A DNA stretch of 64,000 nt from positions 1 through 64,000 of the forward strand of contig JAJYRN010000004.1 of the NCBI GenBank assembly GCA_021794095.1, in the 5' to 3' direction. The translations under genes were made by a program, and so were the position numbers. Under the pieces are notes generated by a model. It saw nothing but the letters and a program-made list of their open reading frames with translations. It made no database searches and was not told the origin of the DNA. Position 1 is the first letter of the stretch. Each line of letters starts with the position of its first letter. This DNA is from Acidobacteriota bacterium. GTDB taxonomy: Bacteria; Acidobacteriota; Holophagae; Holophagales; Holophagaceae. Shown here piece by piece: positions 2,409 to 42,141 of this stretch.

Positions 2409-2448
2409 GTCACGGAAGACACGGAAAAAGGCCGGAGGACACGGAGGG
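2409..2448. repeat. Left inverted repeat of GxxExxY element, ACGGA subtype
   Basis: This about 40-bp sequence is built from repeated CACGGA(A/G) units. The reverse complement of 2862-2905 matches it at roughly nine of ten positions, so the two form the ends of an inverted-repeat element that encloses the GxxExxY gene. It lies immediately upstream of the lptE start codon. Confidence 0.85.
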
Positions 2449-2457
2449 GATTTGCCA

Positions 2458-2916
2458 TCAAAGGACGAAGCGGCGGATGCCGTGCCGGGCCATAGGATAG
2501 GCTCCAAAGTTGAGCAGAAGGCCGATGGGTTTGTCAGAAAACCGGAGGTAACTGAGGATCTGGGCCTTGTGGGCATCCGTGAAGGCCTGGACCACCTTCA
2601 ATTCTACGACCACGAGATCATCCACCAGCAGATCCATCCGGAAGGCCTGGGGAATCTCAAGGCCCCGGTAGGCCAGGCCCAACTCTACTTGGCGCTCGAC
2701 CCGATGCCCCTCAAGCCTCAACTCATGAGCAAGACATGCTTCGTAGGCGGATTCCAGCAGACCCGGCCCCAGCGCTCGCTGAACGCGGATGGCGGCCCCG
2801 ATCACAGCCTCCGTAAGGTCCGCATGGGGCCCACCGGTCCGCAGGGCGCCGGGAAGGTCTTCTTCCGTGTCTTCCGGCCCTTTTCCGTGCCTTCCGTGTC
2901 CAGCCTGCTCGTTCAT
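2458..2916 (-). CDS. GxxExxY family protein (PD-(D/E)XK nuclease-like)
   Basis: A 152-residue member of the GxxExxY family, which belongs to the PD-(D/E)XK nuclease superfamily. The signature GLLESAY is at residues 52-58, and the candidate metal-site residues D95, E105 and K107 (MDLLVDD then VVELK) follow with normal spacing. The family has no firmly established function. Residues 6-20 of the frame are encoded by the flanking repeat, so the true start may lie further in, but no alternative start codon precedes the conserved domain. The ATG overlaps the hpt stop as ATGA, and the gene ends just before lptE, so the element sits inside the hpt-lptE run without breaking it. A divergent second copy is at 19164-19547. 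Confidence 0.85.
   Translation of the reverse strand: MNEQAGHGRHGKGPEDTEEDLPGALRTGGPHADLTEAVIGAAIRVQRALGPGLLESAYEACLAHELRLEGHRVERQVELGLAYRGLEIPQAFRMDLLVDDLVVVELKVVQAFTDAHKAQILSYLRFSDKPIGLLLNFGAYPMARHGIRRFVL
2862..2905. repeat. Right inverted repeat of GxxExxY element, ACGGA subtype
   Basis: This carries units CTTCCGTGT and CTTCCGGCCCTTTTCCGTG. It is the inverted partner of 2409-2448 and overlaps the first codons of the GxxExxY reading frame. The same two arms, with almost no loop, recur as a solo element at 5261-5343. Confidence 0.85.
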
Positions 2917-5243: not shown

Positions 5244-5260
5244 AGCCCCCGAAAAGCCTG

Positions 5261-5343
5261 GTCACGGAGGACACGGAAAGGAACCGGAGGACACGGAAAT
5301 TGGATTCCGCGCCTTCCTGCTTTTTTCCGTGCCTTCCGTGTCC
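5261..5343. repeat. Solo palindromic repeat, ACGGA subtype (GxxExxY-associated)
   Basis: Arms of about 38 bp made of CACGGA(A/G) units face each other across a very short loop. Both arms match the ends of the GxxExxY element at 2409-2905, but the nuclease gene is missing. It lies between the convergent genes for the Spy-like protein and RNase J, where its strong stem could also terminate transcription from both sides. Confidence 0.88.
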
Positions 5344-5352
5344 AGCTGGTTT

Positions 5353-17974: not shown

Positions 17975-18994
17975 ATGCTGATTCTGGGCCTCGAATCTTC
18001 CTGCGATGACTGCTCCGCTGCGGTGGTAGAGGAAACCTCCTCCGGCCCAATGTTGAAAGCCCTGGTGCGCAAGAGCCAGGACGGGATCCACGGCCCCTTC
18101 GGCGGCGTGGTGCCCGAGCTGGCGGCCCGGGAGCACCTGCTGCAGGTGCGCTCGGTGATGGCCGAGGCCCTGGCCAAGGCAGGGATCGGGCTCCAGGATC
18201 TCGATCGGATCGCGGTGACCCGCGGCCCCGGCCTCGTGGGCAGCCTGCTGGCGACTTTCAGCGCCAGCAAGGCCATCGCCTGGCGCGAGGGCATCCCCTG
18301 GGTGGGCGTCCACCACTTGCTGGGCCACCTCAACGCCGCCCGCTTCGCCGCGCCGGACCTGCCCTTCCCCGCCCTGGCCCTGCTGGTCTCCGGGGGCCAC
18401 ACCCACCTCTACCTGGCCCGGGACTGGACCTCGCTCGAACTGCTGCAGAAGACCCGGGATGACGCCGCGGGCGAAGCCTTCGACAAGACAGCGCGGATGC
18501 TGAACCTGGGCTATCCCGGCGGCCCCGTGGTGGACACCTGCGCCAGCCGGGCGCCGAAGGCGGCCGAACCCTTCACCCCGCCGAAGTTCCGGGATGGCAA
18601 GGCCTCCTGGAGCTTCTCGGGCCTCAAGACGGCCGTGAAGCTGCGGGTGGAGCGCGATCCCAGGCTGGCGGAGGCCGGCGCGGAGGATCCGCAGGTCCAA
18701 GGCCTCTGCCGGAGCCTCCAGGAGGCCATCTCCGGCTGGCTGCTGAAGCCCGTGCCGGAGATGGCGCGGGCCCACGGCGCCCGGAGCCTGCTCATCAGCG
18801 GCGGCGTGGCCTGCAATTCCCGCCTGCGGGCGGACGCCGCGGCCCTGGCCACCCGGGAGGGCCTGGCCTTGGCCATCCCCGAACCCCGGCTCTGCACGGA
18901 CAATGGCGCCATGATCGCCGCCGCGGGGGCCCTGCTGCCCTTAGAGGCCAATCCCTGGCCGCAGAACGCCGACGCGGACCTCAAGCTGGCCTGA
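17975..18994 (+). CDS. tsaD: tRNA N6-adenosine threonylcarbamoyltransferase
   Basis: A 339-residue ASKHA-fold protein that transfers threonylcarbamoyl to A37 of ANN-decoding tRNAs together with TsaB and TsaE. The N-terminus ILGLESSCDDCSAA, the metal ligands H114-x3-H118 (HHLLGHL), the nucleotide motif LLVSGGHTHLYL and the C-terminal SGGVACNSRLR and TDNGAMIAAAG are all present. It is divergent from priA with only 23 bp between the two start codons. tsaB and tsaE are not in this window. Confidence 0.96.
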   Translation: MLILGLESSCDDCSAAVVEETSSGPMLKALVRKSQDGIHGPFGGVVPELAAREHLLQVRSVMAEALAKAGIGLQDLDRIAVTRGPGLVGSLLATFSASKAIAWREGIPWVGVHHLLGHLNAARFAAPDLPFPALALLVSGGHTHLYLARDWTSLELLQKTRDDAAGEAFDKTARMLNLGYPGGPVVDTCASRAPKAAEPFTPPKFRDGKASWSFSGLKTAVKLRVERDPRLAEAGAEDPQVQGLCRSLQEAISGWLLKPVPEMARAHGARSLLISGGVACNSRLRADAAALATREGLALAIPEPRLCTDNGAMIAAAGALLPLEANPWPQNADADLKLA

Positions 18995-19054
18995 ACCAGC
19001 CCATCCTCCGTGGTCCGCTGCCTATTGATCTGCATGTATCGGTTGCAAATAAAA

Positions 19055-19140
19055 TTAGCCACAAAGAACACAAAGTTCACAAATTAAATAATTAAAATAT
19101 TTTTTTGTGTCCTTTGTGTCCTTTGTGGCTATTTTCAAAA
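19055..19140. repeat. Palindromic repeat, CACAAAGAA subtype (left of GxxExxY gene)
   Basis: The arm AGCCACAAAGAACACAAAG is answered by CTTTGTGTCCTTTGTGGCT on the other side of an AT-rich loop. Together they make a complete imperfect palindrome of about 85 bp. Base composition (strongly AT) contrasts sharply with the GC-rich chromosome. It ends about 25 bp before the GxxExxY start codon. Confidence 0.9.
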
Positions 19141-19163
19141 TCTCCAATGAGGGCCCTCTTGGA

Positions 19164-19547
19164 ATGACCATGAACGATATCAAAGTTCTCTGCGACCAGA
19201 TTCGCCAGATCGCCTTCGAGATCCATCAGTACTTGGGATACGGCCACCTCGAAAAGGTGTACGAGAATGCACTGGCCCATCGCCTGCGCAAAGCTGGCTT
19301 GAGGGTTGGACAGCAGCACCCCATCAAGGTCTTTGATGAAGATGGCACCCTCATCGGAGACTACATCGCCGATCTGTTCGTCGAAGATACTCTGCTCATT
19401 GAATTAAAGGCCGCAAGCAGCTTGGCCCAAGAGCATCAAGCGCAGATATTGGGCTACCTCAAAGCATCGAGGATCGAACATGGGCTCCTGATCAACTTCG
19501 GAGCTTCAAAATTCGAGATCCGCAAGTTTATTTGGAATGATAATTAG
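19164..19547 (+). CDS. GxxExxY family protein (PD-(D/E)XK nuclease-like), second copy
   Basis: A 127-residue GxxExxY protein: signature GHLEKVY at residues 27-33, with the presumed nuclease residues D70, E80 and K82 (IADLFVED then LLIELKA). It lacks the repeat-derived N-terminus of the copy at 2458-2916, and the two share mainly the family motifs, so they are not a recent duplication. Codon use is less GC-rich than its neighbours, which together with the AT-rich flanks suggests horizontal acquisition. The frame is open upstream to 19107, but that part is repeat sequence. A complete palindromic repeat flanks each side. Confidence 0.87.
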   Translation: MTMNDIKVLCDQIRQIAFEIHQYLGYGHLEKVYENALAHRLRKAGLRVGQQHPIKVFDEDGTLIGDYIADLFVEDTLLIELKAASSLAQEHQAQILGYLKASRIEHGLLINFGASKFEIRKFIWNDN

Positions 19548-19657
19548 CCACAAAGAACACAAAGAACACAAAAAACACAAAGAACACAAAGAACACAAAG
19601 AACACAAAATAACTGATCATTTCTTATTTGTGCTCTTTGTGTCCTTTGTGGCTATTT
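19543..19657. repeat. Palindromic repeat with tandem 9-bp units (right of GxxExxY gene)
   Basis: The left arm starts AGCCACAAAGAACACAAAG and continues as about six tandem copies of a CACAAAGAA unit. After an AT-rich centre the right arm reads CTCTTTGTGTCCTTTGTGGC. The outer 20 bp are the same as in the palindrome at 19055-19140 and in the same orientation, so the nuclease gene is bracketed by two direct copies of one palindrome. The unit length is a multiple of three and contains no stop, giving a meaningless His-Lys-Glu repeat if translated. Confidence 0.9.
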
Positions 19658-19750
19658 TGTTTTTCATGAGGCCATTCCGGGCAGAATCAATGGATCACAC
19701 CAAGGCCCTCCTGCGGCCACATCCACGGGTTCATCTGGGCTGGCAATGAA

Positions 19751-19807
19751 GCACCAAGGATGCAAAAGTCACGAAGCTGTTGGCTGCATTTCGTGTGGTC
19801 TTGGTTC
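19751..19807. repeat. Degenerate palindromic repeat upstream of gatC
   Basis: GCACCAAGGATGCAAAAGTCACGAAG is answered by CGTGTGGTCTTGGTTCC. The arms resemble the CACCAAG subtype at 42071-42141 but are shorter and less well paired, as if decayed. It lies 36 bp upstream of gatC. Confidence 0.6.
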
Positions 19808-19842
19808 CATCGTTTCTCTCTGTCTTCTTTGGGAAGCTGGTC

Positions 19843-42070: not shown

Positions 42071-42141
42071 GTCACCAAGGCACCACGACACCACGAAAAC
42101 CGCTTGATTCTTTTCTTGGTGTCTTCGTGTCTTGGTGGTGA
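42071..42141. repeat. Solo palindromic repeat, CACCAAG subtype
   Basis: The arm GTCACCAAGGCACCACGACA is answered by GTGTCTTCGTGTCTTGGTGG with a short T-rich centre. It sits between the SRPBCC gene and the DUF4139 gene. The fourth sequence subtype of the same palindrome family in this window. Confidence 0.85.

Follow-up and report, generated by a model that had tools for sequence, protein, structure and literature searches.

GxxExxY genes, predicted to encode PD-(D/E)XK nucleases, and their palindromic repeat arrays: a possible REPIN/RAYT-like partnership

The locus and the question it raises

The DNA analysed here (the window) is a stretch of 64,000 nucleotides from a 3.0-Mb draft genome of an Acidobacteriota bacterium (G000), and between its tsaD and gatC genes lies a small gene of the GxxExxY family that is bracketed by palindromes made of short tandem units. 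Palindromes of similar build, with no gene inside, stand elsewhere in the same window (Table 1). What relation do the palindromes bear to the gene, and how did the gene-less ones come to be where they are? A sequence-only reading of this DNA had proposed that recombination between the two direct palindromes excises the gene and leaves a solo copy, and that the solo repeats found elsewhere arose in this way.

Table 1. Positions of GxxExxY genes, repeat arrays and neighbouring genes in the window
Feature	Position	Strand	Remarks
Array, CACGGAAGA type	2411-2450		Outer; flanks the first GxxExxY gene on one side
First GxxExxY gene of the window	2467-2820	-	PF13366 match, 1.6e-38
Array, CACGGAAGA type	2862-2915		Other side of the first gene; inverted relative to 2411-2450
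Solo palindrome, CACGGAGGA type	5258-5345		No gene inside
tsaD	17975-18994		Left neighbour of the GxxExxY gene
Left palindrome, CACAAAG units	19052-19135		Arms 19052-19083 and 19104-19135
GxxExxY gene, 125 aa	19170-19547	+	Predicted Cas4/lambda-exonuclease-like PD-(D/E)XK nuclease (PF13366, TIGR04256, structure model)
Right palindrome, CACAAAG units	19542-19664		Arms 19545-19575 and 19624-19654
Expanded left arm of the right palindrome	19548-19609		9-nt units
Third, degenerate CACAAAG-type palindrome	19748-19809		Upstream of gatC; by eye, from the L025/L164 alignment
gatC	start 19843		Right neighbour of the GxxExxY gene
Solo palindrome, CACCAAG/CACCACG type	42073-42137		No gene inside

Much of what that reading described at the locus is borne out. 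Each palindrome opens with the same AGCCACAAAGAACACAAAG; the window has just two exact copies of it, at 19057 and 19546, and both lie on the + strand. Near matches number six in the window and none in 100 shuffles. The block is indeed AT-rich in a GC-rich chromosome, with 26% and 31% GC in the palindromes and 50% in the gene, as compared with 68% for the window, and the expansion of the right palindrome, put at about six units, amounts on our count to about six or seven units of 9 nt. The arms of the left palindrome are 88% complementary, and as single-strand hairpins both palindromes are much more stable than shuffled sequence, with z-scores of -9.5 for the left and -5.1 for the right. The tip of the right palindrome supplies the stop codon of the gene (TAG, 19545-19547). 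The third palindrome, upstream of gatC, is better preserved in the sister genome G042 than in the window.

The tsaD-gatC junction in related genomes

We compared this junction in 43 genomes of the same genus that have tsaD and gatC on one contig. The junction is bare in 34 of them (in nearly all of these gatC lies 10 nt beyond the aligned end of tsaD), eight have the gene, and one (G003) has an unrelated gene-less palindrome. A lone CACAAAG palindrome was seen between tsaD and gatC in none of the 43 relatives, so that neither the predicted reciprocal state, a palindrome without its gene, nor the excision that would produce it finds any trace at this site. Likewise, the arrangement of a gene between two complete palindromes holds for the window and G042 only; the other six gene-bearing genomes have the right palindrome alone, which is common to all eight. 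The conserved unit is the gene together with the right palindrome, and since six of the eight have a single palindrome, the direct pair is a late addition.

The suggestion of slippage-like expansion, on the other hand, stands. The right palindrome of G042 is 45 nt shorter than that of the window, which thus has five more 9-nt units, and G054 and G055, whose tsaD genes are 97.5% identical, differ by exactly 36 nt, or four such units. Because these differences are exact multiples of 9 nt, slippage-like change in unit number must be real.

The gene copies at tsaD-gatC form a single clade (support 0.96) under strong purifying selection (dN/dS 0.03-0.12), while presence of the gene is patchy over the tree of the tsaD region. 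Together these observations indicate a single old insertion that was afterwards variously lost or exchanged. A GCCTGA sequence near both edges of some of the insertions was considered as a target-site duplication and rejected, because it is variable and consists of stop-codon and ribosome-site sequence.

The GxxExxY protein

The 125-residue protein of the window is a member of the TIGR04256 family (125.7 bits, 1.1e-36, curated cut-off 35) and also matches PF13366 (120.2 bits, 7.9e-35, cut-off 22). Apart from this PDDEXK_3 domain, a Pfam scan returned one sub-threshold match and no Y1 HUH transposase. We found no solved structure of any sequence relative of the protein; the closest structural matches of its AlphaFold model (pLDDT 96) are Cas4 SSO0001 (4ic1; Foldseek 5e-4, Z 9.4), LHK-Exo and lambda exonuclease (both by Foldseek) and RecB-type nuclease domains. 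A Hjc-like resolvase was also considered, and rejected as merely a middling fold match (Z 6.3). Across 217 homologues, E28, D68, E78-x-K80 and Q92-x3-Y96 are conserved in at least 213, and D68, E78, K80 and Q92 in at least 214. Modelled fold and catalytic residues therefore both place the protein in the PD-(D/E)XK superfamily, as a predicted nuclease.

GxxExxY hardly occurs on plasmids (8 of 72,556 records), and was found neither in 50,697 phage records nor, by the patterns used, in IMG/VR; a phage or plasmid as its vehicle was rejected on these counts. Membership in a known defence system was likewise rejected, the window gene having no PADLOC match and no PHROG match.

Each gene with its own repeat

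Arrays of this kind consist of units of about 7 nt at a spacing of 9-10 nt, and they occur as inverted pairs that form hairpins, either around or beside a gene or alone at the stop/start junctions of operons. The CACAAAG arrays hold two to seven units. In 46 of 51 cases GC or AC stands directly before the first unit (GCC in the window), and 78 of 81 inner spacers consist of two purines, which gives the array a capped end and a direction. At gene-bearing loci the capped, purine-rich end mostly points outward (113 loci are purine-left and 19 reversed).

The genome of the window has five GxxExxY genes in total, and the other four go with arrays of different units: CACGGAAGA, CGCCAAGAA, CGCGAAA and a 10-nt ATCACYGTTT. 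At least one GxxExxY gene is present in 40 of 47 genomes of the genus. We scored each locus by comparing the 150 bp upstream of the gene with the reverse complement of its downstream flank, requiring an ungapped score of at least 12. Out of 116 loci in the genus, 83% had such an inverted match between their own flanks (median score 19), as opposed to 7% for flanks taken from different loci, 1.7% for control positions in tsaD loci and 0.3% for shuffles. The pattern extends well beyond the genus: in 80 loci from Verrucomicrobiota, Planctomycetota, Hydrogenedentota, Acidobacteriota, relatives of Geobacter and others, 74% had an own-flank inverted match, against 16% in the control. A GCCRCAAAGARCRCAAAG unit is common to the window and most of these 80 loci, whose proteins are only 53-90% identical.

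Repeat and protein also vary together. Among loci at different sites, the more nearly identical the proteins are, the more alike are the arms; measured across data sets, the correlation is modest but significant (r 0.18, null 0.03, reached in 0 of 1000 permutations). Switches of the repeat period between 9 and 10 nt number four on the protein tree, where 10.1 are expected (0 of 1000). As far as sequences can show it, GxxExxY genes and arrays are coupled, each version of the protein having its own repeat. Concerted evolution of the arms was considered as well; within-locus similarity is 0.83, versus 0.71 for arms at the same site in other species, but the comparison is biased because arms were picked by their within-locus match, and we do not maintain it.

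In G139, from a sister genus of the same family, 28 PF13366 matches (L402-L429) at first sight resemble a gene that copies itself. They turned out to be copies of an IS5-like element of about 1.57 kb, in which a GxxExxY cassette with GCGGAGG arms is a passenger; there are over a dozen copies, about 99% identical, and in many of them the cassette gene is internally deleted.

Gene-less palindromes

We counted CACAAAG palindromes with the pattern CCACAAAGNACACAAAG, allowing one mismatch. Genomes of the genus have between none (as in many of them) and 96 matches (G054), and the reversed pattern, used as a control, gave one match over all genomes. Counts are higher in genomes with the tsaD-gatC gene (Mann-Whitney p 0.002; p 0.019 when the gene's own site is left out). 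There are, nevertheless, genomes with many matches in which the cognate gene was not found, namely G004 (50), G037 (38) and G009 (34). In these, either the gene was lost or the palindromes were moved by something else, and they are the main evidence against the model that we favour below.

The gene-less palindromes turn over at orthologous junctions. One such junction has a CACAAAG palindrome in G009 and a different type in its sister G049; G054 and G058 have composites there, and in eight other genomes the stop/start is bare. At purH-alaS, seven genomes have CACCAAG solos and two have CGCAGAGG solos, while the elements with a gene at this junction are of two further repeat types. The element at cdsA-dxr sits exactly between the stop and start codons, which touch each other in the empty genomes, with no target-site duplication longer than 3 nt. 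In G009 and G017 the palindromes lie in both orientations, often beside or inside remnants of other palindromes. The sequence-only reading was thus right that solo palindromes exist, but those of the CACAAAG type stand at other, unrelated sites, where relatives have no insertion; they must have arrived there rather than been left behind by the tsaD-gatC gene. Dispersal of gene-less palindromes is shown by these comparisons of orthologous sites.

Three further observations concern these junctions. Many species have at purH-alaS a distinct GC-rich repeat family, CCGGGGGTTCCGCGCTGCGCGCACACCCCCGG... (L221, L224, L225, L231, L243, L244). In G032 (L229) the loop of the CACCAAG solo at purH-alaS contains about 45 additional nucleotides, which include a small hairpin of their own. 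At kdsA-pyrG in G009 (L432/L200), a CACAAAG palindrome lies inside a decayed GxxExxY gene of another type.

What moves the palindromes

The explanation that we favour, although we regard it as evenly balanced between true and false, is a partnership akin to that of REPINs with RAYTs, in which GxxExxY nucleases and their cognate arrays belong together and the nuclease aids the copying of the palindromes. The nuclease would recognise its cognate units and cut at them, probably acting as a multimer and on hairpins that are extruded or single-stranded. Such cuts could let gene-less palindromes spread by copying to new sites, while the gene itself would remain stationary and be inherited under selection, as RAYT genes are. 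Both the binding of the units by the nuclease and a dispersal driven by it are things that we infer.

One may also consider that a different enzyme moves the arrays, be it a Y1 transposase of the RAYT kind, that of an insertion sequence or one of the host's repair enzymes, and that GxxExxY genes are passengers. Palindrome-rich genomes without the cognate gene would fit this well, as would the cassette that rides within the IS5-like element of G139. The IVP/S23 genes of the genus (PF05635; L247-L262), which are unrelated to GxxExxY, occupy similar inverted arrays: these are locus-specific (units GCTATCA, GTCTTCA, GTCCTCA and GGCAGTW), and 11 of 13 loci have an inverted score of at least 12. However, the IVP arrays keep a strict period of 7 nt, as opposed to 9-10 nt for GxxExxY, indicating that the array goes with the protein, and across phyla both unit sequence and period track the GxxExxY protein family. 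We therefore consider a different enzyme unlikely.

Homing is a second possibility, in which the nuclease cuts a solo palindrome and repair of the break inserts a copy of the gene, which then stands between the arms and destroys the target. The gene does lie between the two arms at most loci, with the orientation bias given above (113 versus 19), and purH-alaS and kdsA-pyrG have solo palindromes in some species and gene-bearing ones in others. Yet at tsaD-gatC and cdsA-dxr the genomes without the gene mostly have a bare junction instead of a same-type solo, and at purH-alaS the solo and gene-bearing states differ in repeat type, which makes homing rather improbable.

The arrays could also be bound by a global regulator or by a protein of the nucleoid, with the nuclease gene nearby by coincidence. 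In the part of PMC2700814 considered here, classes 1-3 of Geobacter metallireducens are described as putative global regulator sites made of paired, opposite-strand tandem units of 7 and 8 nt, with binding by unknown regulators or by IHF/HU suggested, and their consensus TCTCCGTS[Y] comes near the CACGGAG type found here. Those sites resemble GxxExxY arrays in being intergenic, paired, opposite-strand tandem units of 7 to 9 nt; no link to GxxExxY was found in that part of the paper. Regulatory sites would hardly be expected to match the subfamily of the GxxExxY gene they flank, to differ between loci of one genome, or to be gained and lost at orthologous junctions, as the arrays do, and we give this explanation little credence. 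That a composite of two palindromes excises itself through recombination of the direct copies and leaves solos, for which the pair in the window and G042 would speak, is very improbable indeed, given the missing solo at tsaD-gatC (0 of 43 relatives) and the single palindrome in six of eight gene-bearing relatives.

Under the REPIN/RAYT-like partnership one may go further and suggest, as a possibility rather than a probability, that GxxExxY proteins are widespread, so far unrecognised repeat-dispersing nucleases with a subfamily-specific code of 9-10-nt hairpin units; they would then be an independent invention of the REPIN/RAYT type, derived from a Cas4-like nuclease, and the four-helix-bundle IVP/S23 elements, with their 7-nt code, a third parallel one. 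If so, domesticated repeat-dispersing nucleases arose more than once. In the open-access literature we found no paper tying GxxExxY or PF13366 to such repeats. GxxExxY is a commonly annotated family without a known function, for which the link to repeats provides a testable substrate, and the phased repeats, numerous in many environmental genomes, had no explanation. The natural pairs of protein and DNA code also offer material for studying the recognition of sequence and spacing by a small nuclease.

Comparison with known systems

By its predicted fold the protein appears closest to the Cas4/lambda exonuclease/RecB group, which supplies its top structural matches and with which it shares the invariant E, D, ExK and QxxxY; it differs in being about half the size and in that a cysteine cluster was not seen, and, unlike for Cas4, no cas neighbours were seen in the GxxExxY loci read. 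Nor is the element a classical DDE transposon, as there is no transposase between the arms and no duplication longer than 3 nt at cdsA-dxr.

The 23S rRNA intervening sequences carry a small S23/IVP ORF within long, stem-forming inverted repeats, and are thought to be selfish, their mobility being unexplained (PMC4990558). A small ORF within long inverted repeats is what they share with the GxxExxY element, whereas they lie within rRNA and are cut out by RNase III (PMC4990558). The window element is not one of them: its protein is a GxxExxY protein and its site is tsaD-gatC. The IVP protein, moreover, is a four-helix bundle, as opposed to a predicted PD-(D/E)XK nuclease.

The closest parallel is REPIN/RAYT, in which REP palindromes go together with a transposase of the Y1 tyrosine kind (PMC3116915, PMC8049555). 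Where RAYT is a Y1 HUH transposase, the GxxExxY protein is a predicted PD-(D/E)XK nuclease, and since the two enzymes are unrelated the system is not a RAYT; its arms, too, are phased arrays of 9-10-nt units in variable number, its gene usually lies between the arms, and there are several subfamilies per genome. The likenesses are nevertheless extensive. Here, as there, hairpin-forming inverted pairs of short polar repeats are found in tens of extragenic, gene-less copies dispersed in the genome, in clusters and nested in one another; each type of protein has one type of repeat, specific to it and lying beside its gene; the gene is inherited vertically, under selection and not on plasmids; and the copies are more numerous in genomes that have the gene (PMC3116915, PMC8049555).
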